Position numbers and translations under genes: made by a program
The notes under the pieces: model-generated
Told to the model about the DNA's origin: nothing
Seen by the model: only the letters and a program-made list of their open reading frames with translations
Database searches by the model: none
Part shown: piece by piece, positions 1-29,780 of the stretch
Layout of the letters: the number at the start of each line of letters is the position of its first letter
Numbering within the stretch: position 1 is the first letter of the stretch
Assembly: GCF_024055715.1 (NCBI RefSeq)
Contig: NZ_JAMXMV010000002.1
Location: forward strand, 434,001-498,000
Origin: Actinoallomurus soli
GTDB lineage: Bacteria > Actinomycetota > Actinomycetes > Streptosporangiales > Streptosporangiaceae
Length of the DNA: 64,000 bases
Direction: 5' to 3'

Positions 1-994
1 CGGCGACGTCGAACAGCGGGTTGTCGTTCGAGGAGTTGACCTCCACGGTCACCCAGCGCGCGGCCCACTCGACGGTGTCGCGGAGCACCCCGATGACGTG
101 AGGGGCGCACCGGATCGAGTAGCGGTCCTGAATGGGGTCGTCGAGCTCGCGGAAGCCGTCCTCGGACATGTGCGCGGCCTCGGGGCCCTGGGCGTTGGCG
201 CCGCCGAGCAACCGCCGGATCGTACGGGCGCTGGCGATCACGCCGTCGTGCGGCTTCTGCTCGAACAGGAACGCGGCGAAGTGACCGGGATTGCCGCGCA
301 GGACCGACGACGCCATGGCCGTGCACAGGTCGGCGGCGTAGGCCAGCTCGGCCGCGCCGTGCAGCGCGAGGGCGGCGAAGCCGGACATGAACGAGGTGCC
401 GTTGACCAGGCCCAGGCCCTCCTTCGCGCCGAGGGTGAGGGCCTCGATCCCCACCTCGGCCAGCGCCTCGGCGGCCGGGCGCTCGACGCCGTGGTGCAGG
501 ACCGTACCCTCGCCGGTGAGCAGCGCGGCGATGTAGCTGAGCGGCACCAGGTCACCGCTGGCGCCGACCGAGCCCTGCTCGGGGATGAGCGGCAGGATGT
601 CGTGATTGAGGCATTCCAGCAGGTTCGCGGCGCACTGGGGACGGACGCCGGAGTGGCCGCGCGCCAGGCAGTTCGCCCGTACGAGCATGGTCGCGCGGGC
701 GACGTCCGGCGCGGCGTACGTGCCCACGCCGCACCCGAGGAAGCGGATCAGGTTCCGTTGCAGTTCCTCGACCTTGGCCGTGCCGATCTGCCGGGTGTTG
801 CTGTCCCCGAACCCGGACGTCACGCCGTAGATGGGGATGTCCGTCTCGATGAGCTTGGTCTTCAGCTCGTCCGACAGCTGCATCCGGCGAGCGGCCTCAT
901 CGGCCAGCTCCAGGTGAACCGTGCCGGGGTGCCGCGCCACCGCGACGATGTCCGCGAGGGTCAGGCTATGGCCGTCGATCAGCAGACTTGTCAC
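1..994 (-). CDS. MIO-type aromatic amino acid ammonia-lyase/aminomutase (3' part beyond window)
   Basis: The visible 331 residues belong to the HAL/PAL/tyrosine aminomutase family. These enzymes remove ammonia from His, Phe or Tyr, or shift it to the beta carbon, using a self-made MIO cofactor. The MIO-forming Ala-Ser-Gly is seen in GSVGASGDLVPL near residue 145, the catalytic-loop Tyr in IYGVTSGFG near residue 53, and the family motif EVNSSNDNPLFD near the window edge. The GTG start overlaps the acyl-CoA ligase stop (TAGTG), so the two are translationally coupled. That pairing suggests an aryl-acrylate (cinnamate type) made here and activated next door. A beta-amino acid product as in SgcC4 is equally possible from the family. 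The C-terminus lies outside, so substrate-deciding residues cannot all be read. Confidence 0.9.
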   Translation of the reverse strand, partial: MTSLLIDGHSLTLADIVAVARHPGTVHLELADEAARRMQLSDELKTKLIETDIPIYGVTSGFGDSNTRQIGTAKVEELQRNLIRFLGCGVGTYAAPDVARATMLVRANCLARGHSGVRPQCAANLLECLNHDILPLIPEQGSVGASGDLVPLSYIAALLTGEGTVLHHGVERPAAEALAEVGIEALTLGAKEGLGLVNGTSFMSGFAALALHGAAELAYAADLCTAMASSVLRGNPGHFAAFLFEQKPHDGVIASARTIRRLLGGANAQGPEAAHMSEDGFRELDDPIQDRYSIRCAPHVIGVLRDTVEWAARWVTVEVNSSNDNPLFDVA

Positions 995-2589
995 TAGCTC
1001 CTACCTTTCTCCATGAGATTTCGCGTGCCGTTCCCGGATCTCCCGGTCACCAGCGCCCGGAGCGCAGCCCTGTCGATCTTTCCGCTGGCGTTGCGGGGCA
1101 GGGCTTCGAGATGGACGACCCCGGTCGGCAGCTTGAAGCGCGCCAGGCGCTCGGAGGTGAAGGCCCGGACGGCGTCGAGAGTGGGCGGCTCGCCCCCGTG
1201 GCACAGCACCGCCACCGGCGTCTGGCCCCACCGCGGATCGGGGACGCCGACCACGGCGACGTCCCGTACGCCGGGGAACTCGGCGAGCACCCGCTCGATC
1301 TCGGCCGGCGAGACGTTCTCACCGCCGCTGATGATCAGGTCCTTGAGCCGGTCGACGATGTAGCAGAGCCCCTGCTCGTCGAGGAAGCCCAGGTCGCCGG
1401 TGGAGAACCAGCCGTCGGCGTCGATGGCCGCGGAGGTGGCCTCCGGGTCGTTCCAGTACCCGCGCATGACGTTCGGGCCGCGGACGCACAGCTCACCGGG
1501 CATGCCCGGGTCGGTGACCGGCAGCCCGGTCCGCGGCGACAGCACGCGGACCTCGGAGTACGGCATGGCGAAGCCGGCCGAGGCCGGGTGGGTCCGGACC
1601 AGGTGGGGCGGCAGGTAGGTGGCGAACGGGGCGGTCTCGGTGAGGCCCCAGGCCTGTTGCAACGCCACGCCGTGCTCGGCGTACTCGGCGACGAGCGCCG
1701 GCGGCACCGGCGCGCCCGCCACGACCGCCGCGCGCAGCGAGGACAGGTCCGTACGGGCGAAGTCCTCCGACCGCAGCATCGCCGCGAACATGACCGGCAC
1801 CATGAACGTGCTCGCGATCCGGTACCGCGCCACGTCCTGGAGGCACCGCTGCGGATCGAAGGCACGGCGGAGGACGACCGGGCCGCCGCGGGTGAGGGTG
1901 CCGAGCGTGAAGGCGTTCAGGCCGCCGATGTGGAAGAGCGGCGCCACGGCGAGGGTGGCCGCGCGCGGGCGGATGTCGATCGCGGCCTGCACGTTGACCT
2001 GGTTCCACCACAGGTTGCCGTAGGTGAGGATCACGCCCTTGGGCCGGCCGGTGGTGCCGGACGTGTACATCAGGAGGGCGACGTCGTCGGCGCCGGCCGG
2101 CACCGGGTCCGCCGGGGCTACCGGGTCGGCCGGGTCCGCCGGATCGGCCGCGCCCCCGCCGATCGGCTGCCAGCGGCCGTCGCCGTCCTCGCCGTCCAGG
2201 TAGAAGCGGTGTACGGGTACCGAGTCCGCGATGCCGTCGGCGAGGCCGCGGTGGCCGTCCTCGGCGACCACGCTGTGGCAGCCGGCGTTGCCGAGTACGT
2301 AGGCGACCTCGTCGGGCGCCAGCCGGAAGTTCACCGGCACGAAGACCGCGCCGAGATGGGCGGCGGCCAGCAGCGTCTCCAGGAACAGCGGGCTGTTCAT
2401 GCCGAGGTAGGCGACACGGGAGCCGCGCCGCGCCCCGCCCGCGGCCAGGACCGCGGCCGTCCGCCGGACGCGGCGGCTCAGCTCCGCGAACGTGAGCGTG
2501 CCGTCGTCATGGATGATCGCGGGATCCGATCCGGATATCCGCGCCCATCGATGGATCGCTGCCGCGGGATTGATCCAGGGCTGATTCAC
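994..2589 (-). CDS. Acyl-CoA ligase (ANL superfamily; probable aryl-acid CoA ligase)
   Basis: This 531-residue adenylate-forming enzyme is of the fatty-acid/coumarate CoA-ligase kind. Motifs in order: YTSGTTGRPKG (P-loop, about residue 175), the Gly-Leu-Thr-Glu of the A5 motif in WGLTETAPF, STGDLGF, VDRLKDLIISGGENV (hinge and A8) and the C-terminal lysine in NASGKID. It should activate a carboxylic acid as AMP ester and pass it to CoA or to a carrier protein. It lies directly upstream of the MIO enzyme with a 1-nt overlap, so an aryl acid such as cinnamate is the likely substrate (inference). A low-complexity Ala-Asp-Pro run sits near residue 155 in the linker before the P-loop. The start is set by ATG at the edge of the AT-rich upstream region. 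Confidence 0.9.
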   Translation of the reverse strand: MNQPWINPAAAIHRWARISGSDPAIIHDDGTLTFAELSRRVRRTAAVLAAGGARRGSRVAYLGMNSPLFLETLLAAAHLGAVFVPVNFRLAPDEVAYVLGNAGCHSVVAEDGHRGLADGIADSVPVHRFYLDGEDGDGRWQPIGGGAADPADPADPVAPADPVPAGADDVALLMYTSGTTGRPKGVILTYGNLWWNQVNVQAAIDIRPRAATLAVAPLFHIGGLNAFTLGTLTRGGPVVLRRAFDPQRCLQDVARYRIASTFMVPVMFAAMLRSEDFARTDLSSLRAAVVAGAPVPPALVAEYAEHGVALQQAWGLTETAPFATYLPPHLVRTHPASAGFAMPYSEVRVLSPRTGLPVTDPGMPGELCVRGPNVMRGYWNDPEATSAAIDADGWFSTGDLGFLDEQGLCYIVDRLKDLIISGGENVSPAEIERVLAEFPGVRDVAVVGVPDPRWGQTPVAVLCHGGEPPTLDAVRAFTSERLARFKLPTGVVHLEALPRNASGKIDRAALRALVTGRSGNGTRNLMEKGRS

Positions 2590-2677
2590 ACCAGCAGGAT
2601 CGTTGTTCGTTCTATATGTCCGCTATCTTCAAACTCATTCTATAAAACAGCTATATCTCACTATATGTCCGCTATCC
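2590..2677 (-). promoter_or_regulatory. AT-rich putative promoter/operator with 16-bp direct repeats
   Basis: This strongly AT-rich stretch separates the KAS III-like gene from the acyl-CoA ligase in otherwise GC-rich DNA. An identical 16-mer, CTATATGTCCGCTATC, occurs at 2612-2627 and 2661-2676 (49 bp apart). A further GCTATAT is at 2650. Within each copy the CTAT cores are 11 bp apart. The second copy overlaps the stop codon of the upstream gene. It probably drives the ligase/MIO pair. Confidence 0.5.
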
Positions 2678-3680
2678 GGAGAAGTGCGCTGCTCCAGCTG
2701 AATCCGGCGCCGACGCCGAGCATCAGGACGTACTGTCCGGGCTTGAGCTGTCCGTTCTCATGGAGGTGGTTCAGCGCGGCGAGTTGATCGGCCGGTCCCA
2801 GATGACCGGTGGATCGGGCGAAATCCCATGTCGTACGCTCGATATCCCGGAGGCCGAGCGGAAACAGGCATTGCAGCATCGTGATCGTACGACCGAAATG
2901 CGGGACGATCACGTGCTCGATCTCGTCGAGGGCGATCCCGGACTCGGCCAGGACCTGGCGGACCACGACGCGCGGGCCGGCGGCCAGCCGCTTGAAGATC
3001 TCCTCCTTCGCCATTCCGCCGGCCTGGAACTCCTTCGCCCGCTCACGCAGGTCGATCGGGAACTTCTTGTCCGGGTCGAACGGGCCGATCGGCGTGTCGC
3101 CCCGGTGCATCGCCTCCAGGGACGGGTCGCTGGTGCTCGCCGTGGCGACCAGGCGCGCGTACCCCTCCCCGGTCGACAGCACCGCGGCGGCGCAGCCGTC
3201 CCCGAACAGGAACCGCTCGGCCCGCCACCGGTCGAAGTACGGAGCGGGGAACAGGTCGCCGGCCGTGATGACCGCGGCGTTCGCCCCGGGCCGCGTCAGG
3301 AACGACGCGGCGAGTTCGAGGGCCGCCAGGCCGCCGTTGGAGCCGCCGCGCACCTCGACGGCGAGCCCACCGGTCATCCCCAGCTCGCGCTGGACGTACG
3401 CGGCGGCGTTCCAGCCGTCCACCCCCGCGCCGAAGGTGCCCGCGCACAGCAGCAGGTCGACGCCGTCCACGTCGAAGTCCGACCGGGACAGGGCGAGCCG
3501 CGCGGCACGGGACCACATGTCCGCGACGTTCTCGCCCGGGCCCGCGACGGTCACCGACGCGTAGTCCTGCCGCTCGGCGTCCTCGGGGTCGTAGGCCCCC
3601 GACGCCAGCGGCTCCTCGACGTCGACGGCCGGCGGAAGCCAGGACGCGGTCGCCGCGATGGAGAGGTCGTTCCAGATCAC
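2661..3680 (-). CDS. KAS III-like acyltransferase (FabH superfamily, CerJ/DpsC type)
   Basis: This 339-residue protein has the thiolase fold of 3-oxoacyl-ACP synthase III. The expected nucleophilic Cys is replaced by Ser in VRGGSNGGLAALE (about residue 118), as known for DpsC. The His is in VIVPHFGR, and the Asn of condensing KAS III is replaced by a GHLGPADQ motif, resembling the Cys-His-Asp arrangement of ester/amide-forming CerJ-like acyltransferases. It is therefore more likely to transfer an acyl group to an acceptor than to start a fatty acid. The start is GTG behind a GAGGAGGGAA ribosome site. It sits in the minus-strand block with ACP and CoA-ligase genes, which could supply its acyl donor. 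Acceptor and donor are unknown. Confidence 0.8.
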   Translation of the reverse strand: MIWNDLSIAATASWLPPAVDVEEPLASGAYDPEDAERQDYASVTVAGPGENVADMWSRAARLALSRSDFDVDGVDLLLCAGTFGAGVDGWNAAAYVQRELGMTGGLAVEVRGGSNGGLAALELAASFLTRPGANAAVITAGDLFPAPYFDRWRAERFLFGDGCAAAVLSTGEGYARLVATASTSDPSLEAMHRGDTPIGPFDPDKKFPIDLRERAKEFQAGGMAKEEIFKRLAAGPRVVVRQVLAESGIALDEIEHVIVPHFGRTITMLQCLFPLGLRDIERTTWDFARSTGHLGPADQLAALNHLHENGQLKPGQYVLMLGVGAGFSWSSALLRIADI

Positions 3681-3754: not shown

Positions 3755-6283
3755 CTACCGTCTTGCGTTGATGTCCTCGGCCGGGTTCCGGCGCAGCATC
3801 ATCCGGGCCGGGACCAACGAGGCCACCAGGCCGAGGACGATCGCGCCGGCCAGGATCTCGGCGTACGTCCCCAGGGCGACGCTCGGTGTTCCGGAGCCGA
3901 CCATTCCGGCGTTGAATCCGGTCAGCGTGAGCCAGGCGGCGCCGGTGCCGAGGACCGCGGCGACCACGATGATCAGCGCCAGCTCCCACCGCAGGACGCC
4001 GAACACCTGCGGGCGTGTGGTCCCGACCAGGCGCATCAGCGCGAACTCGCGGGTCCGGTCGCCCGTCGCCATGGCGAGGGTGTTGACGACGGCGATCGCG
4101 GCGAAGGCGATGATCAGCCCCATGAAGACCAGGTTGACCTCGGCGTTCGTCTGCTCCCGCGCGGCCTGCACCTTGTCGTAGCCGGACCGGTCCAGCACCT
4201 GGAGGCCCGGGAAGCCCTTCAGGTGCGAACGCAGGTCGCGCACGCTCACCGACCCGTTGATCATCACCGTCTTGGCCAGCGGATCGTCCACGTGGCCGAC
4301 GATGTCGTCGTGGGCCAGCAGCGTGTCGCCGAAGCCGAGGCCGCGGCTGTAGATCGCCACCAGGTGGAGCTGCGTCTTGACCCCGTCGCCGAGGGTGACC
4401 TGGACAGCGTCGCCGATGTGCCGCCCCTGGGCCGCGAGCTCGCTCATCGCGATCGAGCCGGGGGCGAGCCGGTCCAGCGATCCGGACGTCACGTCCGGAT
4501 CCACCATCTGCGTCACGCCGGCGGAGGTCAGCCCCTGGGCCGAGCGCTTGTCCTTGCCGACCCAGATGATCGTCTGGAGGACCTCGGTGACCGCCTTCAC
4601 CCCCGGCACCGCCCGCAACTCCTGGGCCGCGGCGGCGGGAACGCCGGGACCGCTCGACCCGACCAGGTAGTCGGCCTTCACGCCGACCTTGGTCTGGGCG
4701 CGGGCCCCGTGGTTCATCGTGACGGGGACGAACAGGATGGTCGTCAGCATGCCGATGAGCAGGGCCAGCGGTGTGATCACCGAGGCCACCCGGCGGCTGT
4801 TGGCCTGGGAGTTCCGCGCCGCGAGGAAACCGCCGACCGGGAAGGCCCGCAGCAGCCCGCCCAGGACCACCACGGCGCCGCGGGTGATGAACGGGCCCCA
4901 CAGCGCCACCGCGATCATCCACAGCAGGATGCTGAGGTACGTCACGGGCATGGCGGCCGGCTCGGTGTGCAGGAAGCTCAGCACCACCGTGATGATCACC
5001 GCGACCGCGGTGAAGACCAGCGCGGCCACCACCCGCCCGAAGCCCACGGTCCGGCGTTCGACGGCCGCCTCGGCCAGCGCCTCCGCCGGCTTGATCCGCG
5101 CGGTACGGCGCCCGGTCACCCGCGCGGCCACCCACGCGGCGCCCACCGTCGCCACCAGCGCGGCGAGGACCGGCAGGGGGCCGCGGTACAGCCGCAGCGC
5201 GTCGGGGATGGCGCCCAGCGAGACGAACTTGGCGCGGATCGTGCTCGCCAGCGGGATGCCGAGCAGCGCGCCGGGGACCCCGGCGGTCAGACCGAGCACC
5301 AGCGCCTCACGGCTGATCATCCGGCGCACCTGGCGCGGAGTGGCACCGACGGCGCGCAGGAGCGCGAGTTCGCGGTAGCGCTGCTGGATCGACAGGGCGA
5401 AGGTGCCGACGACCACGAGCACCGCCACGATCAGCGAGGTGCCGCCGATGGCGCCGCCCATGCTGGTCAGCTTGACCCGGGCCTTGGCGGCGTCGATGAA
5501 CTCGACCTGGCCGCGGCCGTCCCCGGTCGCGACGACGGCGCCGGTCCCGGCGACCGCGGCCTTGACCTTCGCGCCGCTCACGCCGAACACCCCGTAGCCC
5601 GCGACCAGGCCGGGGTGGCCGGCGAGCCGCCGTGCCTCGGCCTCGTCGAAGAACATCGCGGACTGCTGCTTGACGTCGACGTCGGGTCGCGCGATGCCGA
5701 CGACGCGGTAGGTCTTCGGCGACGACGTCGACTGGACGACCGTCTGGTCGCCGACCTTGAGCCCGGCCCGGTCGGCCAGCTTCTCGTCGAGCACCACGTC
5801 GCCGTCCTGCTGCGGCGCCGAGCCGGACCGCAGGCGGTACGGGGTCAGCGCCGCCGACGACCAGCCGTGGCCCCACGACGGCCTGCCGTCCACGCTGGAC
5901 AGCACCGAGCCGTCGTGCTCGACGACGTTCGCCGGGAAGGTCAGGTCGGCGACCACCTTGGCGCCCGGCAGGGCGGCGATCCGGTCGCCGACGGAGGTGG
6001 ACAGCCAGGCGCGCTCGCTCAGCGCCTTGAACTTGGTCTTCCGCTTGACCTTGTGCTTGCCCTTCTTGTTCTTCTCCTTCACCTTGGTCCAGTGGATCTG
6101 CTGGTCGGCGGAGACGACGACCGGCGACCCGGCGTACCGCTCGGCGGGGATGGACCCGTGGATTCCGGTCTCCAGCAGCACGCCGCACGCGCAGACGATC
6201 ATGGCCGCGCAGAACAGCGCGAGGAAACCGCCGACGGCGGACCCCTTGCGCTGCCGGAGCGTGGCCAACGCGAGTCGGAACAT
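3755..6283 (-). CDS. ABC transporter permease, FtsX/MacB type
   Basis: This 842-residue membrane protein has two FtsX modules. A single N-terminal helix (residues about 18-40) is followed by a large extracytoplasmic domain. Then come a helix bundle with LALLRAVGATPRQVRRMI (about 305-400), two central helices, a second extracytoplasmic domain, and a C-terminal bundle with FALMRLVGTTRPQV (about 710-840). A lysine-rich patch (about residues 68-87) sits in the first outer domain. The ATG overlaps the ATPase stop (TGATG), giving an obligate pair. Such pairs act as mechanotransmitters or export peptides and cell-envelope-active compounds. Here self-protection or export of the cluster product is inferred. 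Confidence 0.9.
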   Translation of the reverse strand: MFRLALATLRQRKGSAVGGFLALFCAAMIVCACGVLLETGIHGSIPAERYAGSPVVVSADQQIHWTKVKEKNKKGKHKVKRKTKFKALSERAWLSTSVGDRIAALPGAKVVADLTFPANVVEHDGSVLSSVDGRPSWGHGWSSAALTPYRLRSGSAPQQDGDVVLDEKLADRAGLKVGDQTVVQSTSSPKTYRVVGIARPDVDVKQQSAMFFDEAEARRLAGHPGLVAGYGVFGVSGAKVKAAVAGTGAVVATGDGRGQVEFIDAAKARVKLTSMGGAIGGTSLIVAVLVVVGTFALSIQQRYRELALLRAVGATPRQVRRMISREALVLGLTAGVPGALLGIPLASTIRAKFVSLGAIPDALRLYRGPLPVLAALVATVGAAWVAARVTGRRTARIKPAEALAEAAVERRTVGFGRVVAALVFTAVAVIITVVLSFLHTEPAAMPVTYLSILLWMIAVALWGPFITRGAVVVLGGLLRAFPVGGFLAARNSQANSRRVASVITPLALLIGMLTTILFVPVTMNHGARAQTKVGVKADYLVGSSGPGVPAAAAQELRAVPGVKAVTEVLQTIIWVGKDKRSAQGLTSAGVTQMVDPDVTSGSLDRLAPGSIAMSELAAQGRHIGDAVQVTLGDGVKTQLHLVAIYSRGLGFGDTLLAHDDIVGHVDDPLAKTVMINGSVSVRDLRSHLKGFPGLQVLDRSGYDKVQAAREQTNAEVNLVFMGLIIAFAAIAVVNTLAMATGDRTREFALMRLVGTTRPQVFGVLRWELALIIVVAAVLGTGAAWLTLTGFNAGMVGSGTPSVALGTYAEILAGAIVLGLVASLVPARMMLRRNPAEDINARR

Positions 6284-7044
6284 CAGGCCCACGCCCCCAG
6301 CCGGGTCATCCGGTCCGCGATCTGGTCGGCGGACAGGTTCGACGCGGCCTCCACGATGCCGCCGTCCGCCAGGAAGAGCACCGAGTCGGCGTACGAGGCC
6401 GCCACCGGGTCGTGCGTGACCATCACCATCGTCTGGCCCATGGTGTCCACGGCCTGCCGCAGCAGCTTGAGGATCTCCCGTGCGGTGACGGTGTCCAGCG
6501 CGCCGGTGGGTTCGTCGGCGAACACCACCTCGGGCCGGGTGATCAGCGCCCGGGCGATGGCCACCCGCTGCTGCTGGCCGCCGGACAGCTGTGAGGGCAG
6601 GTGCCGGGCCCGCTCGGCGAGCCCGACCCGGGACAGGACCTCGGCGAGGTACGCCCGGTCGGCGCGGCGGCCGGCCAGCCGCAGCGGGAGGGTGACGTTC
6701 TGCCGTACGTCGAGCGCGGCGAGCAGGTTGAACGCCTGGAAGACGAACCCGATGCGCTCGCGGCGGAGCTCGGTCAGCTCCGTCTCGGACAGCCTGGACA
6801 GGTCGGCGTCGAGGTCACCGAGGTAGACCGACCCCGACGAGGGCCGGTCGAGCCCGGCGGCGCAGTGCAGGAAGGTGCTCTTCCCCGATCCGGACGGCCC
6901 CATCACCGCGGTGAACGTCTGGGGGGGAATGGTGACGGAGACGTTGTTGATCGCGGTGACCGCCCCGGCGCCTTTGCCGTAAGTCTTCGTCACCGATTCC
7001 AATCGAACGGCCGCCCTCGGAAGAGCCGGACCTCTGCGCGCCAT
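6283..7044 (-). CDS. ABC transporter ATP-binding protein (MacB/LolD type)
   Basis: This 253-residue ATPase shows Walker A GPSGSGKST, the Q-loop in FVFQAFNLL, the signature LSGGQQQR, Walker B VVFADEPTGALD and the H-loop in VMVTHD. Length and motifs are those of the partner of FtsX-type permeases, and the permease gene follows with a 1-nt overlap. The ATG at 7044 was preferred to an upstream in-frame start because it lies 25 nt after the MFS stop behind an AAAGGGAACAAGG ribosome site. Confidence 0.92.
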   Translation of the reverse strand: MARRGPALPRAAVRLESVTKTYGKGAGAVTAINNVSVTIPPQTFTAVMGPSGSGKSTFLHCAAGLDRPSSGSVYLGDLDADLSRLSETELTELRRERIGFVFQAFNLLAALDVRQNVTLPLRLAGRRADRAYLAEVLSRVGLAERARHLPSQLSGGQQQRVAIARALITRPEVVFADEPTGALDTVTAREILKLLRQAVDTMGQTMVMVTHDPVAASYADSVLFLADGGIVEAASNLSADQIADRMTRLGAWA

Positions 7045-8314: not shown

Positions 8315-9219
8315 GCGAGGCACCACTCCAGTGCCGCCATGGCGCTGTGCATCTTGTGCTCGGCCTGCCGGAAGGCGACACTGGCCGGGCCGTCGAGCAC
8401 GTCGGCGGTCACTTCGTCGCCCCGATGCGCGGGAAGGTCGTGCATGAAGACGGCCTTCGGGCTGGTCTCCCACAGGTCCGCGGTGACCTGGAACGGCGCG
8501 AACACCCGCCGCCAGTCCGGGTCCGGCTTGCTCGTTCCGGTGGTCTGCCAGCGCGTGGTGTAGATGGCGTCGAAGTCGCCGGGCAGGTCGCGCATGTCGT
8601 GCCGCTCGGTGACGACGGCGCCGCTGTGCTCGGCGTTCGCCCGCGCCCGCTCGGTGTACTCGGCGGGCAGGCCGTACCCCGGCGGCGTGCGCAGCTCCAG
8701 GTGGACGCCGGGGTACCGGCTGAGCGCGAGCGCGAGGGCGGTGGCGCTGTTGTTGCCCTCCCCCACGTAGAGCACGCGCAGGTCCTCGATGCGGCCGAAG
8801 TGCTCCTGCAGGGTGGTCAGGTCGGCGAGTGCCTGGGTCGGGTGCTCGGCGGCGCTCATGGCGTTGATCACCGCCATCGTGTGCTGCGCCGCGAACGCGA
8901 GCAGCTCCTCGGTGCTGCCCGTGGTGCGCGCGACGAGGGCGTCGATCATCCCGGACAGCACGCGGCCGGTGTCCTCGGCGGTCTCCCCCGTGACCAGCTG
9001 CATGTCCTCCGGGCCGTAGGCGATCACCTGCGCGCCGAGGCGCAGCGCGCCCGCGGTGAACGCGGTCCGGGTGCGGGTCGAGGTCTTGCGGAAGTAGGTG
9101 CCGACGATCCGCCCGGCCAGGCTGCGTTCGCGGTGTCCGGCGGCGAACCGCACGGCACGCGCCACCACGTCATGGAGATCGTCGTCGGGCAGGTCCGATA
9201 CCGAGATCAGATGGCTCAT
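8311..9219 (-). CDS. Ornithine carbamoyltransferase-like enzyme, probable side-chain amine carbamoyltransferase
   Basis: This 302-residue aspartate/ornithine carbamoyltransferase homologue keeps the carbamoyl-phosphate site (KTSTRTR near residue 48 and HPTQ near 130). The ornithine-binding HCLP signature reads HDLPAHRGDEV, so the substrate is probably not ornithine. In viomycin-type clusters such an enzyme (VioL) carbamoylates diaminopropionate to beta-ureidoalanine, and this cluster also has the SbnA/SbnB pair that makes diaminopropionate. I therefore infer Dap, free or carrier-bound, as acceptor. The ATG at 9219 has AAGGA just upstream. An in-frame ATG at 9243, directly after the preceding stop, would add eight residues and cannot be excluded. 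Confidence 0.82.
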   Translation of the reverse strand: MSHLISVSDLPDDDLHDVVARAVRFAAGHRERSLAGRIVGTYFRKTSTRTRTAFTAGALRLGAQVIAYGPEDMQLVTGETAEDTGRVLSGMIDALVARTTGSTEELLAFAAQHTMAVINAMSAAEHPTQALADLTTLQEHFGRIEDLRVLYVGEGNNSATALALALSRYPGVHLELRTPPGYGLPAEYTERARANAEHSGAVVTERHDMRDLPGDFDAIYTTRWQTTGTSKPDPDWRRVFAPFQVTADLWETSPKAVFMHDLPAHRGDEVTADVLDGPASVAFRQAEHKMHSAMAALEWCLA

Positions 9220-12588: not shown

Positions 12589-12616
12589 GGGCGGCCGCCG
12601 TTCCATGCGCACGGGC

Positions 12617-12642: not shown

Positions 12643-12659
12643 CCGTGGAAGGGACCGTG

Positions 12660-13157: not shown

Positions 13158-13172
13158 CGATTCGAGGTGTCA

Positions 13173-21806: not shown

Positions 21807-24800
21807 GCCGGGCTGCCCTCCTGCGCGGCCAGCTCCTCCTCGACCGAGGCCCGTACGGCCTCCTCGACGAGGACGGCCATCCCGGCGATGGTCGGGTTGT
21901 CGAAGAACGCGCGCATCGAGATCTTCGCGCCGAACTCCCGCCGGACGTCCGAGACGAGCCGGGTGGCGAGCATCGACGTGCCGCCGGCCTGGAAGAAGTC
22001 GTCCTCGACGCCGACGAAGCGGTCGAGGACGTCGGCCCACAGGCCGGCGATGCGGTATTCAACCCTGTTCCTGGGCGCACCGGTCATATCTGGTTTCTCC
22101 TGTGGGGGCTGCTCCAGCCGGAACAGCGCTTCGTAGTCGATCTTCGAGTTGCGGTTGAGCGGGATCCGGTCGATGGGGACGACCCGGCCGGGCACCATGT
22201 AGTCCGGCAGGAAGCGGCCGGCGTGCGCGATCAGCTCGGCCGGGGCCGGCACCTCACCCACGCAGTACGCCACCACCTGGTCGTCGCGCAGGGCGACCAC
22301 CGCGGCCCGTACGCCGGGGTACTCGGTGAGCACGGCCTCGATCTCACCGAGCTCGACCCGGCGCCCGCGTACCTTCACCTGCCGGTCGGCCCGGCCGGCG
22401 AAGACGAGCGCGCCGTCGGGCAGCTCGCGGCACAGGTCGCCGGTGCGGTACAGCCGGTTCCCGCCTCCGGTGAAGGGGTCCGGCAGGAAGCGGGACGCGG
22501 TGAGGCCCGGCCGGCCCATGTAGCCGCGCGCGACGCCCGCGCCGCCGATGTACAGCTCGCCGATCGCGCCCGGCGGCACCGGCCGCATCTCCTCGTCGAG
22601 CAGGTACACCGACACGTGCGGGTACGGGTGCCCGATGCACGCCGTCTCGGCGTTCGCGGGGACCCGCCAGCGGGTGGCCGCGACGGTCGTCTCGGTCAGC
22701 CCGTACTCGTTGAAGAACACCCGGACCCGGGACGCGATCTCGCTGAGGTGCGCGGGGGTCGTCGCCTCGCCGCCGGTGATCGCGGTGACGTCCCGCACAC
22801 CGAACCCGGCGTCGATCAGCATCTGCCAGTGCGGCGGCGAGACCTGCAGGTGGGTCACCGCGTGCTCGTCCATGAGCCGGAGCTGGGCCGCGTGGTCCAG
22901 GACCTGCTCGGCGTCCGCGATCACCGTACGGCCGCCGGACGACAGCGGCAGGAACAGCTCGACGCAGGAGATGTCGAAGGTGAACTCGGCCATCGCCAGC
23001 CACGCCGAGTGCTCACCGAAGTCCAGGTTGTCGCGCGCCGCGGCCAGCATGGTCGCGAGCGAGCGGTGCTCCACCTGGACGCCCTTGGGGCGGCCGGTCG
23101 ACCCGGAGGTGAACATGACGTAGGCCGGCGCGCCGGGGTTGGGCACCGACAGCGGCACCCCCGCCCCGGGTCCGGTCTCCGGCGGCGTCGTGCCGGACTC
23201 GGCCTCGGCGAGGAAGTCCTCGTCGATGACCACGCGTGCCGCCGTGACCTCGAGGATGTGCGACCGGCGCTCCGGCGCGTCGGCCGGGCTCACCGGAACG
23301 TACGCGCCGCCGGCCTTCCACACGCCGAGCACCGCGACCACGAAGCCGGCGCCGCGCGGCAGGGACACGCCGACCACGGTCTCCGGCCCGACGCCCAGGC
23401 CGCGCAGCCGGTGGGCCAGCCGTACGGCGCGGCGGTCGAGCTCGCCGTAGGTCAGCGACGTACCCCCGCCGACGAGCGCGATCCGGTCGGGGTCGCGCTC
23501 GGCCCACCCGGCGATGTCGCCGTGCACGCAGGTGACCGGCCGCCGCTCGGCGGGCCGGGCCAGCCGCGCCCGCTCCTCGTCGGTCAGCACGTCCAGCTCG
23601 GCCAGGCGTACGGCCGGGTCCGCCGCGACCGCCCGGAGCAGGCCGAGGAGATGCCGTCCCATCCGTTCGACGGTCCCCCGGTCGAACAGGGCCGTCGCGT
23701 ACTCCAGGAACCCGAAGGCCGAGCCGTCGTCCTGCCGCTCCAGCACCAGGGTGAGGTCGGTACGGGCGACCCGCCAGGCCCTGCTCGCGGCCTCCAGGTC
23801 GGCGGCGGCGTTGGCCACCCCGGTCAGGCCCGCCTCGTGGAAGTTGAACATCACCTGGTAGAGCGGCGTCCGCGACGGATCGCGCTCCGGCTGGAGCTCG
23901 TCGATGAGCCAGTCGAACGGCAGCGCCTGGTGGGCGAACGCCCCCTGCGTCACGTCGCGCATCCGGCTCACCGCCTCGGCGAAGGTCAGGTCCGCCTCCA
24001 GCGCGCAGCGCATCACCACGGTGTTGAGGAACACGCCCACGACGTCGTGAAACTCCGGGCGGGTCCGGCCGGTGACCGACGTTCCGATCGGCACGTCCCA
24101 GCCCGCGCCGTACCGCCCCAGCAGGGAGGCCAGCGCGGTCAGCAGCACGGTGTACGGGGTCGCCTGACGCCGGCGCCCCACCGCCTCCAGCGCGGCCATG
24201 AGCTCGGCGGGCACCGCGAACGTCACCGCGGAGCCGAGGGCGTCCCGGCGGGCGGGACGCGGGCGGTCGGTGGGCAGCTCCAGGGGCTTCAGGCCGGCCA
24301 GCCGCTCACGCCAGTAGGCGAGCTGGCTCTCATCGACGCCGTGCGTGCGGTGCCAGGCCCCGTAGTCGGCGTACTGGATCGGCGGCGGAGCCGGCCGCCG
24401 GCCCTCGGCCAGGTCGCGGATGTCGCGCGCCAGCACGGCCGAGGACCAGCCGTCGCAGGCGATGTGGTGGATGACGAGCGCCAGCAGGTGGTCCTCGCCG
24501 GGGTTGCGGAACAGCACCGCCCGCCACACCGGCCCCTCGGCCAGGTCGAAACCGCGCCCCAGCTCGTCATCCAGGTCCACCGGGCCGTCCACGACCCGCG
24601 CGCCGACCGGCGCGGGCGGGTCGATGACCTGACGCGGTTCGCCGTCGTCGGCGACGTACCGGGTGCGCAGGATCTCGTGCCGTTCCACCAGGGCGGTCAG
24701 CACCGCGTCCACGTCCTGCGGCGTCAGGGCCGCGGGCAGCCGGACGAACAGCGGCGCGTTCCACTCCGAACCGCCCGGGTTCATCCGGTCCAGCAGCCAG

Positions 24801-26527
24801 AACTGGTGCTGCGCCACCGACAGCGGCAGCGGCGCGCTCCGGCTCACCCGCGTCACCGGCGGGACGTCCGCCGCGTCCTCCAGCAGCCGGGCCTGCGCCT
24901 CGACCGTGGTCGCGGTGAACAGGGCCGGCAGCGGCACGTCGCCCAGCCGTCCGGCGAGCCGCGTCAGCAGCAGCGAGGAGCCGCCGAGGTGGAAGAAGTC
25001 GTCGTGGACGCCGACCTGGGGCAGGTCGAGCAGCTCGGCCCAGGCCCCGGCCACCTCCTTCTCCGCGATCGTGCGCGGCGCGGTGTAGGCCGGCCGGCTG
25101 AGATCCGGTGTCGGCAGGGCGGCGCGGTCGACCTTGCCGTTCGCGGTGAGCGGCAGCTCCGCCAGCTCGACGAACACCGCGGGCACCAGCGCCGCGGGCA
25201 GCCGCTCGAACAGGAACTCGCGCGACGGCGCCGCTCCGGCGACGTAGGCGACCAGCCGCCCGTCGACGGCGACCACGGCCGCCGCCCGTACCGAGGGGTG
25301 CGCGCTCAGGGCCGCCTCCACCTCGCCGGGCTCGACGCGCACCCCGTTCACCTTGAGCTGGGAGTCGAGGCGGCCGAGGTACTCCAGGGTCCGGTCACCG
25401 CGCCAGCGGACCTGGTCGCCGGTCCGGTAGAGCAGCGAGCCCGCCGGCCCGAACGGGTCGGGGACGAACCGCTCGGCGGTCAGCGCGGGCCGCCCCTGGT
25501 AGCCGAGCGCGACGCCGACCCCGCCCGCGTACAGCTCGCCGGGCACGCCGATCGGCACCGGCCGGCCGCGTTCGTCCAGCACGACGACCCGCAGGCCCGG
25601 CAGCGGACGGCCGATCGGGACCGGGCCCGTGGTCTGCGCCGGGTCGAACCGGTGCGCCGTTACGTCGATCGAGCACTCCGTGGGGCCGTAGGTGTTCCAC
25701 AGCTCCACGTCCACCTTGGCGAGCACCTTGTGGCACAGCTCGGCGTGCAGCGCCTCCCCGGCCGAGAACAGCAGCCGTAGCGCGTCGCAGCCGGTCCAGT
25801 CCTCCTCCACCAGGAGCCGGAGCACGGACGGCACCACCTGGAGCACCGTCACGCCGTGCTCGGCGACCGCGCGCAGCATGACCGCGGGGTCGCGCTCGGC
25901 TCCGGGCGGCGCGAGGACGACCACGCCGCCGCTCACCAGCGGCGCCCAGATCTCCCAGCCCGCGGCGTCGAAGCCGATCGTCGTCTTCTGCAGCACCCGG
26001 TCCGCCGGGCCGAGCCCGTGCCGCCGTACGGTCCACAGGACGCGGTTGGCGATCCCGGCGTGGGTGATCACCACGCCCTTGGGCGTCCCGGTCGAGCCCG
26101 ACGTGTACATCACGTACGCCTCGTCGCCCCCGTCGAGCGCGGGGAAGGCGGGTTCGGCCGGGTCGTCCGGGATCTCGGCGAAGAGCTCGGGGGTCAGCTC
26201 GACGGCGGCGGCGCCGTCGGCGAGGATCCGCGCCGACCGTTCGGCGGGACCGGCCGGGTCGATCGGCACGTACGCCGCGCCCGCCTTCCAGACGCCCAGC
26301 AGCGCCGCGATCAGCTCGGGGCTCCGCTCCATGCGCACCGCCACGTGCGCTCCCGGCCGGATCCCCCGGCCGCGCAGGAACGCCGCCACCTGCCCGGCCC
26401 GGCGTTCCAGCTCGCGATACGTGTAGGAGCGCCGCCCACCCGGACCGAGCACGGCCAAGGCGTCGGGCGTCCGGCGGACCTGCGCGGCGATGAGCCCGGG
26501 CAGCGGGCGGATCTCCTCATCGGACAT
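21803..26527 (-). CDS. Nonribosomal peptide synthetase, A-T-C-A-T (initiating)
   Basis: This 1574-residue NRPS starts directly with an A domain, so it is the likely first enzyme of the line. A1: YTSGSTGTPKG, FDAAGWEIW near 186, YGPTE near 280; by-eye code DAWQFATIDK, reminiscent of Gln- and Ser-type codes. T1: LGGSS near 513. C: HHIACDG near 690, canonical. A2: FDISCVELF near 1185, EYGLTE; code DIVQIGEVAK (partly Asn-like, weak). T2: AGGTS near 1512. The Gln-like A1 code would fit diaminopropionate or its carbamoyl derivative, a known glutamine mimic, given the Dap genes upstream; this is inference. The MbtH gene ends 3 nt upstream. Confidence 0.95.
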   Translation of the reverse strand: MSDEEIRPLPGLIAAQVRRTPDALAVLGPGGRRSYTYRELERRAGQVAAFLRGRGIRPGAHVAVRMERSPELIAALLGVWKAGAAYVPIDPAGPAERSARILADGAAAVELTPELFAEIPDDPAEPAFPALDGGDEAYVMYTSGSTGTPKGVVITHAGIANRVLWTVRRHGLGPADRVLQKTTIGFDAAGWEIWAPLVSGGVVVLAPPGAERDPAVMLRAVAEHGVTVLQVVPSVLRLLVEEDWTGCDALRLLFSAGEALHAELCHKVLAKVDVELWNTYGPTECSIDVTAHRFDPAQTTGPVPIGRPLPGLRVVVLDERGRPVPIGVPGELYAGGVGVALGYQGRPALTAERFVPDPFGPAGSLLYRTGDQVRWRGDRTLEYLGRLDSQLKVNGVRVEPGEVEAALSAHPSVRAAAVVAVDGRLVAYVAGAAPSREFLFERLPAALVPAVFVELAELPLTANGKVDRAALPTPDLSRPAYTAPRTIAEKEVAGAWAELLDLPQVGVHDDFFHLGGSSLLLTRLAGRLGDVPLPALFTATTVEAQARLLEDAADVPPVTRVSRSAPLPLSVAQHQFWLLDRMNPGGSEWNAPLFVRLPAALTPQDVDAVLTALVERHEILRTRYVADDGEPRQVIDPPAPVGARVVDGPVDLDDELGRGFDLAEGPVWRAVLFRNPGEDHLLALVIHHIACDGWSSAVLARDIRDLAEGRRPAPPPIQYADYGAWHRTHGVDESQLAYWRERLAGLKPLELPTDRPRPARRDALGSAVTFAVPAELMAALEAVGRRRQATPYTVLLTALASLLGRYGAGWDVPIGTSVTGRTRPEFHDVVGVFLNTVVMRCALEADLTFAEAVSRMRDVTQGAFAHQALPFDWLIDELQPERDPSRTPLYQVMFNFHEAGLTGVANAAADLEAASRAWRVARTDLTLVLERQDDGSAFGFLEYATALFDRGTVERMGRHLLGLLRAVAADPAVRLAELDVLTDEERARLARPAERRPVTCVHGDIAGWAERDPDRIALVGGGTSLTYGELDRRAVRLAHRLRGLGVGPETVVGVSLPRGAGFVVAVLGVWKAGGAYVPVSPADAPERRSHILEVTAARVVIDEDFLAEAESGTTPPETGPGAGVPLSVPNPGAPAYVMFTSGSTGRPKGVQVEHRSLATMLAAARDNLDFGEHSAWLAMAEFTFDISCVELFLPLSSGGRTVIADAEQVLDHAAQLRLMDEHAVTHLQVSPPHWQMLIDAGFGVRDVTAITGGEATTPAHLSEIASRVRVFFNEYGLTETTVAATRWRVPANAETACIGHPYPHVSVYLLDEEMRPVPPGAIGELYIGGAGVARGYMGRPGLTASRFLPDPFTGGGNRLYRTGDLCRELPDGALVFAGRADRQVKVRGRRVELGEIEAVLTEYPGVRAAVVALRDDQVVAYCVGEVPAPAELIAHAGRFLPDYMVPGRVVPIDRIPLNRNSKIDYEALFRLEQPPQEKPDMTGAPRNRVEYRIAGLWADVLDRFVGVEDDFFQAGGTSMLATRLVSDVRREFGAKISMRAFFDNPTIAGMAVLVEEAVRASVEEELAAQEGSPA

Positions 26528-26530: not shown

Positions 26531-26731
26531 TCAGACACTCTCCATCCGCCGGCGCAGGCTCAGCGGGCGCATGTCGGTCCACACCTCGTCGATGTGCGCG
26601 AGGCACTCCTCCTTGCCGCCCCGCGTGCCCTCGGCGTGCCACCCGGCCGGCAGCTCGCGCCCGTCCCACCAGATCGAGTACTGGCCCTCGTCGTTGACGA
26701 CGACCAGGTACGTCACCTGCTTCTGCGACAT
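26531..26731 (-). CDS. MbtH-like NRPS helper protein
   Basis: This 66-residue protein has the full MbtH signature: the NDEGQYSIW start, the Trp and Pro-Ala-Gly-Trp of LPAGWHAEG, and CLAHIDEVWTDMRPLSLR near the C-terminus. MbtH proteins bind NRPS adenylation domains and are often required for their folding or activity. It sits directly before the NRPS genes, and its ATG follows an AGGAGATATCTC ribosome site. Confidence 0.97.
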   Translation of the reverse strand: MSQKQVTYLVVVNDEGQYSIWWDGRELPAGWHAEGTRGGKEECLAHIDEVWTDMRPLSLRRRMESV

Positions 26732-26749: not shown

Positions 26750-27727
26750 TCACCAGGGCACGGACTGGCCGGCGCCGCTGTTCTCCGCGGTCCGCCGGAC
26801 CATCTCGGCCACCGCGATGTCGAGCGCTCCGAGGCCGAACGGCGAGAACACCGTGACCTGCCCGGTCCCGGCCGGGAGGGGCTCACCGTCGAGGAGCGCG
26901 CCGATGGTGGCGTGAATGAAGTCGCGGTTCCCCGCCTGCTGCGAGGCGAGGTGCACCGAGGTGCGCTCGCGGTCGACGTGGTCGGGGTCGTCGACGACGT
27001 TCCGCGCCGCCAGCAGCGCCTCCGGACGCAGGTCCCGCAGCGACACGTGCAGGACGACCGTCCCCGGCCGGCAGGCGTCGAGGCCGGTGTGCGGGGTCGA
27101 GGCGTTGGTGGCGAAGGAGACCAGGCGGTGGGCGGCCAGCGCGGCGTCGAGGTCGGTGGTCCGGCGGACCGTCAGCCCGCCGGGGAGCCCGGACGCGAGC
27201 GCCTCCGCGCGTGCCGGATCGACGTCGTGCAGCAGGACCTGCGTCACCGAGGGCAGCAGGTGCCGTACGTAGCGCAGGACCGCCTGGTTGATCACGCCGC
27301 ACCCGATCAGGCTGATGCCGGTCGGCTCCGCCTCGCCGAGCAGCCGGGCCGCGAGGGCCGCGCTCGCCGCGGTCCGGTGCGCCGAGATCAGCGACCCTTC
27401 GAGCAACGCGGTGGGGCGGCCGGTGTCCAGGGAGTTGAGGATGATCGCGGCGCTCGCCCGTGGCAGTCCGTCCGCGATGTTGCCGGGGAAGGACGCGATC
27501 CACTTCATCCCGGCCGCGTGGACGGGCCTGCCGACGTAGGCCGGCAGGCCGATGATCCGGTTGACCGTGTCGCCGGGGAACCGCAGGAACGTCGAGTGCG
27601 GCACCGCCGTCTGTTCCCGGTGGTGCAGCCGGTACGCCGTCCGCACCGCGTCCACCACCGCCGCCGGGGAGCCGGCGAGGATGTCTTCGATCTCCTTCTG
27701 GGCAAGGACCAGCAGCCGTGTCGTCAC
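26750..27727 (-). CDS. SbnB-like dehydrogenase (ornithine cyclodeaminase family), diaminopropionate formation
   Basis: This 325-residue member of the ornithine cyclodeaminase/mu-crystallin family has the NAD-binding motif SLIGCGVINQ near residue 143. In the staphyloferrin B pathway SbnB oxidatively splits the SbnA product, N-(1-amino-1-carboxy-2-ethyl)glutamate, into L-2,3-diaminopropionate and 2-oxoglutarate. The same pair (VioK/VioB) serves viomycin. The gene follows the SbnA-like gene. The GTG start at 27727 has CGGAG 9-10 nt upstream. In the sequence as given, the upstream gene's frame runs without a stop into this one because of a probable frameshift there. Confidence 0.9.
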   Translation of the reverse strand: MTTRLLVLAQKEIEDILAGSPAAVVDAVRTAYRLHHREQTAVPHSTFLRFPGDTVNRIIGLPAYVGRPVHAAGMKWIASFPGNIADGLPRASAAIILNSLDTGRPTALLEGSLISAHRTAASAALAARLLGEAEPTGISLIGCGVINQAVLRYVRHLLPSVTQVLLHDVDPARAEALASGLPGGLTVRRTTDLDAALAAHRLVSFATNASTPHTGLDACRPGTVVLHVSLRDLRPEALLAARNVVDDPDHVDRERTSVHLASQQAGNRDFIHATIGALLDGEPLPAGTGQVTVFSPFGLGALDIAVAEMVRRTAENSGAGQSVPW

Positions 27728-27761
27728 GGGATTCAGTCTCCGAGTGCCCGCTATGCCCGGC

Positions 27762-28759
27762 CTATACCTCGACCTCGTCCTCCTTCCACAGGTGGGCGAC
27801 CTCGCCGAACTGCGTCGTGACCAGGAGTCCGAGTAGATGGTGTCGAGGTAGCGATCCCCCCGGTCCGGGAAGATGAGCACGCAGGTGGCCCCGTCGGGGA
27901 CCTGCCGGCGGACCCGCGCCAGCGCCGCGACGGTCGCCCCGGAGGACCCGCCCGCGAGGATCGCCTCCCGGCCCACGAGCTTGCGGCAGCCGACGACGCA
28001 GTCCAGATCGCTGACGTGGACGACCTGGTCCGGGATCGAGCGGTCCAGGAGCGCCGGCGCGACGGAGGCACCGTGCCCCGGGATGAGCCGCGGAGCCGCC
28101 TCGTCGCCGTACAGGAGGCTGCCCACCGCGTCCACCGCGATGAGCGTCGTGTTCAGGCCGTGCTCCCGTACGTAGGCGGCGCAGCCGTTCAGCGTGCCCG
28201 TGGTGCTCGTCGCGGAGAACAGGTAGTCGACCCGGCCGTCGAGCGCGGTGGCGATCTCGGCCATGGTGCGCTCGTGCGCCTTGGGGTTCAGCGCGTTCGA
28301 GTACTGGTCCGGGGAGTACGCGTGCGGCGTGGCCTCGACGATCTCCCACACCCGCTTCTTGCGCACGGACAGGAACTCCCCGGTCACCGGGTCGGGGTCG
28401 GTGACGACGTCCAGGCCGACCTGGTAGGCGCGCAGTATCGCCAGGTTCTGCTCGGTGGTCTTGGCGTCCACCACGCAGATCAGCCGCAGGCCGAAGTACC
28501 GGCAGATCTGGGCCAGGCCGATCGCCAGGTTCCCCGAGCTGGACTCCACGATGACCGAGCGGCCCGCCTCCAGCTCGCCGGACTTGATCTTTTCGAGGAT
28601 CATTCCCGCCGCGGAGCGGTCCTTGATGCTGCCGCCCGGGTTGAAGAACTCGAGCTTGCCGAACACCCGGCCCCTGAACCCCGGCATCAGCGCGCTGAGC
28701 TCGGCCAGGGGCGTGTTCCCGATGGTGTCCAGGACTCCGCTGACCGGCTTCGTCCGCAT
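27762..28759 (-). CDS. SbnA-like PLP synthase of the Dap precursor, with an apparent 1-nt frameshift near its 3' end
   Basis: This cysteine-synthase-family enzyme has the PLP lysine in NPGGSIKDRSAAG (about residue 36), the substrate loop ESSSGNLAIGLA and GGSSGATVAAL. SbnA joins O-phosphoserine and glutamate. The frame holds until DTIYSDSW (about 27822). After that it reads Arg-rich nonsense and continues straight into the SbnB gene. Adding one G after TGG restores VTTQFGEVAHLWKEDEVEV and a TAG at 27762, which matches the expected C-terminus and gives 332 residues. So this is either a sequencing slip in a short G run or a real mutation. ATG 28759 follows ACGGAGACGGGA. Confidence 0.85.
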
Positions 28760-28793
28760 TCCCGTCTCCGTTCGCATCGTGCTGCGCTGTGGC

Positions 28794-29780
28794 TTAGGCG
28801 ATGACCTGGCTGTCACCGACCCGGGAGCCCAGCGACCGCCGGCCGTCCAGGTGGATGAAGCTGCGGTGCAGCCAGCGGTCCCGGCCGTCGTAGCGCGGGA
28901 CGAACTCGCTGCGCCCGTGGACCGTGATCCGGTTGTCGACCACGGCCAGGTCACCGGAGCCGAGGACGAAGGTCTGGGCCGCGGCGGCGAGGTGCTCCTT
29001 GAGCACGTCCATGGCGTCCCGCGCCTCGTCGTCGAGCGGCCTGGTGGCGTTGAAGTCGACCAGGATGTTCGGGTCACCGGACGCGCCGGAGAACACCGCA
29101 TGCCGCAGATTCTTCGCCCCGGAGGCGACGAACGACGGCGGCGCCTCGGTCTCGAAGCGCTCCTGCCACAGCACCTCCCGTACCTTGACGGGGATGTGGG
29201 GGAACGCCCGGCGGAGCGGGCCGGTGAGCAGCCCGGCCCGGTTCTCGTGGTCGCTGCGCAGGCACATCAGCATCACGTAGTCGGGGCGATGCGCGTGGAA
29301 GGCGTTCTCCACGTGCATCTCCAGGTCGGCGGAGCCGGCGTTGCTCTGCGTCCGCTCCTGCCCCTGGACCGGCACCACGTTCTGGACCAGCGCGCCGTCC
29401 TTCTCCTTCTGGTACGCGATCATCTCGCCCAGGCAGAGCGCGATCAGCGCCTGCGTCGCCGCCGGCAGCGTCGCGTCGCGTTCGACCGAACCGCGCCGGG
29501 TGGGGGTCTGGGGCAGGGTCTCGTCGTCCAGCCCCAGGTTCGACAGCAACAGCACGCCGTCCAGCCCGGGGTCGTGCTGGAACCGGCGCAGCTCCTGCCG
29601 GACCCGGATCGGGACGGCCGCCGCGAGCCGGTAGGCGACGGCCAGCCACTTCTCGTCGTCCACCAGTGCCGGTGGGGTCTGCGTCAGTTCGCGGGCGATG
29701 GCCGCCAACTCGTTTCGCTCGGCGTCCGAGAGCACCACACGGAAGTCCGACTCGGTTCCGACTGCCGAATTCTCACTCAT
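28794..29780 (-). CDS. Fe(II)/2-oxoglutarate-dependent hydroxylase, AsnO/VioC type
   Basis: This 328-residue clavaminate-synthase-like oxygenase has iron ligands His-x-Glu in LEMHVENAFH (about residues 153-155) and the distal His in ITVHGRSEF. The 2OG-binding Arg lies in DRWLHRSFIH. The His-x-Glu variant, in place of His-x-Asp, is the mark of the AsnO (L-Asn 3-hydroxylase) and VioC/OrfP (L-Arg 3-hydroxylase) group that makes beta-hydroxy amino acids before NRPS loading. One A domain here carries an Asn-like code, so beta-hydroxyasparagine is the favoured product, while Arg cannot be ruled out. It is the first gene of the long minus-strand operon. Confidence 0.88.
   Translation of the reverse strand: MSENSAVGTESDFRVVLSDAERNELAAIARELTQTPPALVDDEKWLAVAYRLAAAVPIRVRQELRRFQHDPGLDGVLLLSNLGLDDETLPQTPTRRGSVERDATLPAATQALIALCLGEMIAYQKEKDGALVQNVVPVQGQERTQSNAGSADLEMHVENAFHAHRPDYVMLMCLRSDHENRAGLLTGPLRRAFPHIPVKVREVLWQERFETEAPPSFVASGAKNLRHAVFSGASGDPNILVDFNATRPLDDEARDAMDVLKEHLAAAAQTFVLGSGDLAVVDNRITVHGRSEFVPRYDGRDRWLHRSFIHLDGRRSLGSRVGDSQVIA

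Follow-up and report, generated by a model that had tools for sequence, protein, structure and literature searches.

The window analysed here, a stretch of 64,000 nucleotides of Actinoallomurus soli (assembly GCF_024055715.1, contig NZ_JAMXMV010000002.1, positions 434,001 to 498,000), carries a single, genuine and uncharacterised nonribosomal peptide synthetase (NRPS) cluster of 19 genes, which runs from the left window edge to position 29780, the start of its lyase gene lying 610 bases beyond the edge. Genes were called and the window proteins scanned against Pfam and NCBIfam (the host genome measures 9.4 Mb). The predicted product is cinnamoyl-(beta-ureidoalanine)-(chloro-Trp)-(3-hydroxy-Asn, perhaps dehydrated)-(residue 4). 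A sequence-only reading of the same DNA had proposed that a single NRPS cluster with an aryl-acyl pathway makes a short halogenated peptide carrying a residue derived from 2,3-diaminopropionate (Dap) or ureidoalanine; both synteny and gene content support that proposal, and with it an aryl-acyl cap. All the parts it had claimed were found: a 4-methylideneimidazole-5-one (MIO) lyase, a CoA ligase, a KAS III-like enzyme, an ornithine carbamoyltransferase (OTC)-like enzyme, a free condensation (C) domain, a free acyl carrier protein (ACP), a Trp halogenase, SbnA/SbnB and an Fe(II)/2-oxoglutarate hydroxylase. For the full proposal, one cluster for a chlorinated, aryl-acyl-capped tetrapeptide made by the pathway set out below, we put the chances at about even, with every enzymatic step assigned by homology and co-occurrence.

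The NRPS core has the layout A-T-C-A-T plus C-A-T-C-A-T (A, adenylation; T, thiolation), with three in-line C domains and the four A domains expected from the sequence-only reading, two per protein in the Pfam scan. Modules 1 and 2 (21803..26527, minus strand, as are all features below unless marked plus) carry the A-domain codes DAWQFATID and DIVQIGEVA, and modules 3 and 4 (15711..21806; two C, two A and two T domains in Pfam) carry DLPKIAEVG and DIPMVAEVG. Module 1 is without a C domain of its own, no epimerization (E) or thioesterase (TE) domain was seen in the two NRPS proteins by the Pfam scan, and no thioesterase was found within the cluster. Overlaps of 4 bases among the P450 and both NRPS genes and between the MFS and OTC genes, and of 1 base between the lyase and ligase genes, suggest that the cluster genes are arranged in operons.

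In the proposed pathway, SbnA and SbnB would make Dap, which the OTC-like enzyme would carbamoylate to beta-ureidoalanine for loading by A1. The halogenase and its flavin reductase would chlorinate Trp, with A2 loading the chloro-Trp; the AsnO-like enzyme would yield 3-hydroxy-Asn for A3, and A4 may load a hydrophobic residue. For the cap, the MIO lyase would convert Phe to cinnamate, the ligase would form the CoA ester, the DpsC-like KAS III would carry the acyl group from the ester to the free ACP, and the free C would join it to residue 1. The C domain linking module 3 to module 4 is of the dehydrating type and may convert the beta-hydroxy residue to a dehydro residue, a P450sky-like enzyme would hydroxylate some carrier-bound residue, and export would fall to the ABC/FtsX and MFS proteins.

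The cluster is rare yet conserved. In Actinoplanes utahensis NBRC 13244, 18 cluster genes (a SARP-like gene included) are 65-83% identical to those of the window, with SbnB and a Na+/H+-exchanger-like gene at 46-47%, a degree of sequence conservation beyond chance. The A. utahensis order is hydroxylase, SbnA, MbtH, both NRPS genes, P450, flavin reductase, halogenase and ACP, followed by free C, OTC, MFS, ABC, FtsX, a thioesterase-like gene, KAS III, ligase, lyase and SARP; SbnB and the exchanger lie on the far side of the hydroxylase. The thioesterase-like gene, which sits there between FtsX and KAS III, is missing from the window, where the gap (3680-3755) is 74 bases. In a Streptosporangiaceae metagenome-assembled genome (MAG), 12 of the window cluster's genes lie on one contig, which carries a halogenase (40%), OTC, flavin reductase, SARP, lyase, ligase, KAS III, thioesterase, MFS, free C, ACP, MbtH, SbnB and SbnA. 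This contig is without NRPS genes, and related ones are found on a different contig; the first NRPS protein of the MAG (L041 10306-13644, G153:C311) reads A-T-C-T, its module 2 lacking an A domain, and a beta-lactamase-type domain closes the large partner of this protein. In Streptomyces, OTC, free C and ACP occur together with SbnA, a halogenase and the same NRPS pair. A pattern-based scan for the free C in 84,980 species genomes gave 7 loci, namely A. utahensis (71%), the MAG (73%) and five others at 27-33% (L045-L049), and among 297 genomes of the family a KAS III above 50% identity was found only in the MAG, besides the window's own.

The wider family, which is scattered and little studied, was collected by an A3-domain search of 394 genomes of the class (16 neighbourhoods, with further flanks of seven) and from four annotated Streptomyces plasmid records; near-identical plasmid records were merged with NBC_01362 as one cluster. 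The A1 code type DA[WL]Q[FA]AT[IV]D is present in ten clusters: the window, A. utahensis, the MAG, G649, G430, NBC_01362, G421, G535, G611 and G563. Outside this count stand G502 (best OTC 37%, no A1 code seen), G334 (other A codes), G044 and G095 (A1 not extracted), and H3-H5 and H8-H13, which are known as search matches only. The OTC search was given 7 genomes, the SbnB search 20 and the halogenase search 21. A search around G502 in 35 genomes returned no clear relative among the matches listed. Some relatives have features of their own. The sister clusters L132, L133, L137 and L138 contain two beta-ketoacyl synthases and ebo genes (EboA, EboE and others) and are carried by large linear plasmids of Streptomyces, one of which is typed as mobilizable. 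The G649 cluster (L118+L104+L119) has the same NRPS pair, OTC, SbnA/SbnB and an AsnO-like gene together with sugar-type genes and several similar genes that resemble glycosyltransferases on visual inspection, and is perhaps a glycosylated, non-halogenated relative. A recurrent NRPS of 1718-1821 amino acids with code DLPKVAEVG, present in genomes of the same bacterial family as the window (L107-L111, L116 and L117), has conserved neighbours.

For residue 1, the Dap genes SbnB (26750..27727; TIGR03944, 376.7 bits) and SbnA (27762..28759; TIGR03945, 388.9 bits) both score above the NCBIfam cut-offs; the SbnB start is a GTG chosen by eye, and the SbnA end is taken from another frame that matches the A. 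utahensis tail. As sequenced, the two form one open reading frame of 669 amino acids (26750-28759), which could be a natural fusion, a natural frame change or an assembly error; the MAG and A. utahensis have two genes. The OTC-like carbamoyltransferase (8311..9219; PF02729/PF00185) is the candidate Dap carbamoyltransferase. All nine cluster OTCs keep the carbamoyl-phosphate motifs STRTRT and HPTQ, and in all nine the ornithine-side motifs are altered to TTG and HDLP, where two solved OTCs show SMG and HCLP; two other OTC matches elsewhere in the host genome are 36% identical. Every genome with the A1 code type (10/10) also has SbnB and a cluster-type OTC (65-83% to the window's, its own aside), in the MAG and G563 on a contig other than that of the NRPS. 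SbnA/SbnB and a carbamoyltransferase with a changed amino-acid site should make ureidoalanine, and A1 is predicted to load beta-ureidoalanine: the code DAWQFATID resembles the Gln code DAWQFGLID, and ureidoalanine is a near isostere of Gln.

For residue 2, the halogenase (11020..12588, plus; PF04820, 545.7 bits) is a Trp halogenase, and its best PDB matches are of this kind. Where the sequence-only reading named RebH, the enzyme may be of the 6-halogenase type, chlorinating C6 rather than C7: Trp 6-halogenase 6ul2 (905 bits) and Thal (881 bits) are its closest matches, and the 7-halogenase RebH still reaches 840 bits. The flavin reductase follows at 12645..13157 (plus; PF01613). The MAG halogenase is closest to a Trp 5-halogenase (737 bits), and Trp halogenases of two clades occur among the related clusters. 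The A2 code type DI[VT]QxGE[VI]A is found in five of the ten clusters, four of them with a Trp halogenase; Among the clusters without this code type, G421, G535 and G611 gave no Trp halogenase match at E<=1e-60, and the Trp halogenase of G563 (50%) is encoded on a different contig. One Streptomyces plasmid cluster also contains trpD and anthranilate synthase genes. Chloro-Trp is the predicted substrate of A2. The host genome has a second Trp halogenase (G000:C58:14726-16285), 66% identical to the window's.

For residue 3, the hydroxylase (28794..29780) is AsnO-like, with 268 bits to PDB 2og5 (AsnO) and 145 bits to the next match, which places it nearer AsnO than other hydroxylases of the clavaminate-synthase-like kind; the VioC half of the earlier description "AsnO/VioC-type" was not borne out, the VioC chains reaching about 115 bits. 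All six DLPKIAEVG clusters (window, A. utahensis, G649, G430, NBC_01362 and G334) contain an AsnO-like gene, at 51-74% identity to that of the window, and no such gene was found in the fetched stretches of 12 DLPKV[AG]EVG genomes (G421, G535, G611, G563, G502, G087, G155, G033, G097, G065, G112 and G139); the only one in the MAG is distant (32-34%) and lies on another contig. The A3 code DLPKIAEVG resembles DLTKxGEVG, which we take to be the Asn code. Seven DLPKVAEVG genomes (G087, G155, G097, G065, G112, G139 and G119) have no SbnB above cut-off. We favour 3-hydroxy-Asn over Dap at A3, because DLPKIAEVG tracks the AsnO-like gene and DLPKVAEVG occurs in genomes without SbnB.

The C domain that follows module 3 (C3, in the stretch 17196..18596, motif ECHPILEGW) belongs to a dehydrating-type clade, with McyA (167 bits) and AmbE (147 bits) as its best PDB matches and 84 bits for the next; we take the McyA and AmbE domains to have the dehydrating (CmodAA) role. 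In this clade, domains that follow Thr-like codes, presumably specifying Thr (8/8), or DLPKI (5/5) have I, L or M immediately before the acidic residue of the motif, and those that follow other codes have T there (4/4); these counts are without C domains missed by the pattern, at least those after G535 1694, G334 658, G502 1714 and G563 1734. The pattern is consistent with a beta-hydroxy donor, as assigned by code and co-occurrence, and with possible dehydration. The A4 substrate, with code DIPMVAEVG, is perhaps hydrophobic. The P450 (14482..15714) is closest to PDB 4l0e (481 bits, next 263.5), presumably the P450sky of skyllamycin, and is 82% identical in A. utahensis; its relatives in the MAG reach only 33%.

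The cap would be supplied by the genes at the left end. The MIO aromatic amino acid lyase (1..994, the gene continuing to -610 outside the window) scores 376.5 bits to PF00221 for its in-window part, and its best NCBIfam match is BagA/FevW at 644 bits, under the cut-off of 1000. Where the sequence-only reading had allowed an ammonia-lyase or an aminomutase, an aminomutase is less likely than a lyase because the gene overlaps that of the acyl-CoA ligase (994..2589; PF00501, 292.7 bits) by 1 base, beside the KAS III-type acyltransferase, although the closest solved relative is a tyrosine aminomutase. The selectivity-position pair is F-L in the window and A. utahensis, which we take to be the mark of Phe-specific MIO enzymes, and L-L in the MAG. 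The KAS III-like acyltransferase (2661..3680) has Ser at the nucleophile position in all three orthologues, as does DpsC (4xs7), its closest solved relative at 209.6 bits, ahead of ChlB3 (194.4) and CerJ (188.9). The acyl groups and acceptors of these three enzymes differ from those proposed here. The free ACP (10597..10854) has a DSL serine site and matches NCBIfam ACP models only, below cut-off. The free C (9244..10593; PF00668, 216.4 bits) was found at E<=1e-60 in 5 of the 394 genomes, all with the A1 code; the free C proteins of eight clusters form one clade (support 100/100), each with HHxxxD intact. Acyl supply differs among these clusters, with lyase, ligase and KAS III in three and two ketosynthases plus FabG in G430 and NBC_01362. 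Because the free C is one clade across clusters with differing acyl-supply genes, and module 1 is without a C domain, it is probably a trans-acting capping domain; in the window, the gene content makes cinnamoyl the likely acyl group.

Several observations weigh against this scheme. No A-domain code was matched to a tested enzyme, the sole exception being Gln, by analogy. Because the clusters are in part related to one another, the co-occurrence counts do not represent independent cases. In G649 the A2 code occurs without a Trp halogenase at E<=1e-60; the MAG has a 5-type halogenase yet lacks an A domain in module 2. The Phe preference proposed for the lyase is taken from the F-L pair, from which the MAG departs. 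Two of the genomes with the A1 code, G649 and G563, gave no free C match at E<=1e-60. For acyl supply, G421, G535 and G611 have a set with a distant CoA-ligase-like gene.

Three rival explanations were weighed. Two adjacent clusters meeting near 10900 would account for the change of transcription direction around the halogenase group (11020-14522). This possibility, raised with the sequence-only reading, is contradicted by the near-identical gene order across 10900 in A. utahensis, by the MAG contig that brings genes of both blocks together (lyase, ligase, KAS III, free C, ACP, OTC, MbtH, SbnA, SbnB and Trp halogenase) and by the Streptomyces clusters, in which SbnA, a halogenase and the same NRPS pair accompany OTC, free C and ACP, and we consider it hardly credible. 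A1 could also load plain Gln or another amide, and the product of the carbamoyltransferase would then serve another purpose, such as a ureido group that stays free or is added at a later stage. Gln itself is possible, as the two codes differ at just two of nine positions; still, all ten genomes with the A1 code type also have SbnB and a cluster-type OTC, and the only other A code common to all ten clusters, the DLPK type, also turns up without SbnB, so that this explanation appears improbable.

The third rival takes its shape from saarvienin A, HHPP-Dap-(beta-Me-Cl-Trp)-Dap-Phe with a urea bridge (PMC12171682). In such a core, A3 would load a second Dap, a urea carbonyl set by the carbamoyltransferase would bridge residues 1 and 3, and the AsnO-like enzyme would act on another residue. 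The published structure runs Dap-ClTrp-Dap-Phe, its first residue capped by an aromatic group, and the paper lists a lyase, an AMP-binding enzyme, two Dap genes, a Trp halogenase and a Cys-variant C domain for the candidate cluster, a Cys that is also present in C3 of the window; in addition, SbnB is above cut-off in all four DLPKIAEVG genomes tested. Against this, the saarvienin text mentions no carbamoyl enzyme and gives an NRPS layout of 4 + 2 modules (PMC12171682). Dap at A3 is further weakened by the seven genomes with the near code DLPKVAEVG in which SbnB did not pass the cut-off. The link of DLPKIAEVG to the AsnO-like gene, and its likeness to the presumed Asn code, point the same way. 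A bridged, second-Dap core is thus unlikely, although it has real weight, and 3-hydroxy-Asn at A3 is retained.

The remaining genes include several that the sequence-only reading had overlooked, among them the P450 and flavin reductase described above. These are an MbtH-like protein (26531..26731; PF03621, 70 bits), a Na+/H+-exchanger-like membrane protein (13167..14522, plus; PF00999, 140.1 bits) whose homologue adjoins the A. utahensis cluster, the exporters, comprising an FtsX-like ABC permease (3755..6292; PF02687), an ABC ATPase (6283..6993; PF00005) and an MFS protein (7070..8314; PF07690), and the SARP-like regulator, which lies outside the window to the left (-2433..-706). The same genome holds a second, larger NRPS locus (G000:C10:82175-105034) with 9 C-domain matches.

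Taken more broadly, the cluster and its relatives may represent an undescribed actinobacterial peptide family, in which a re-tooled OTC would provide the ureidoalanine start and a dedicated free C would cap in trans from a free carrier protein, whatever route filled it, and the urea carbonyl of saarvienin A may come from carbamoyl phosphate by the same type of enzyme; we offer this tentatively, with rather less than even confidence. NRPS C domains build peptide ureas, and a carbamoyl-phosphate origin would differ. Saarvienin A acts on Gram-positive bacteria resistant to vancomycin and daptomycin (PMC12171682). Its biosynthesis is unproven, and these clusters suggest for it a testable urea source (the carbamoyltransferase) and cap route (ACP and free C). 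A. utahensis NBRC 13244 is a named strain with an orthologous cluster, in which the compound could be sought, and a capping domain that is conserved while the genes for acyl supply vary would be of interest for engineering acylated peptides.

Several known systems share parts of this gene set. The viomycin and capreomycin ureidoalanine genes encode SbnA/SbnB-type enzymes and an OTC-like carbamoyltransferase, as in the window; to our knowledge these pathways have no Trp halogenase, lyase or acyl cap, and the window hydroxylase, in contrast to theirs, is AsnO-like rather than VioC-like. P450sky is the closest solved P450 by the wide margin given above. Biffamycin A, as far as its published description goes, is likewise a tetrapeptide built by a pair of dimodular NRPS that begins with A-T-C-A-T; its second residue is a chlorinated Trp, and its pathway includes an amino acid hydroxylase. 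It differs in having Ile, hydroxy-Lys and Gly residues, a hydroxylase of the VioC-like kind, E and SurE domains and mannosylation (PMC13285481). It was rejected as the product type, as that description includes no Dap (PMC13285481). The Dap cyclic lipopeptides enamidonin and olenamidonin were rejected on the structure described for them, Phe-Dpr-Dpr-Gly without a halogen (PMC11204786, PMC12843350).

A literature search of open-licence PMC articles, covering the A codes, combinations of genes and compounds, turned up among the articles listed no described cluster that matches this one in gene content and order. The remark in the sequence-only reading that it knew of no pathway with all these parts needs revision, as the core and proposed cluster of saarvienin A (2025), as described, share most of the gene set (PMC12171682). 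Saarvienin A is the nearest known product. Its candidate cluster, BGC14 of Amycolatopsis sp. YIM10, is covered in one paragraph and was not validated (PMC12171682). As predicted for the window product, the saarvienin core has four residues, of which the first derives from Dap and bears an aromatic acyl group and the second is chloro-Trp. Going by its published description, BGC14 shares an aromatic lyase, an AMP-binding enzyme, two Dap genes, a Trp halogenase and a C domain in which Cys replaces the first His of the motif (PMC12171682); this change is present in the motif ECHPILEGW of both the window and A. utahensis. Saarvienin A alone, as described, has a pentasugar chain, a beta-methyl on Trp, Dap at position 3 in the urea bridge and NRPS of 4 + 2 modules (PMC12171682); the window alone has the AsnO-like enzyme, the P450, the Asn-like A3 and NRPS of 2 + 2 modules, and no glycosyltransferase, eremosamine or methyltransferase gene was found among the 19 genes scanned. 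Position 3 probably differs from that of saarvienin A. The likeness is strong in residues 1 and 2, the cap and the gene set, and weak in residue 3, the sugars and the NRPS layout. The cluster seems to work like the saarvienin core, yet we do not class it as a saarvienin cluster.

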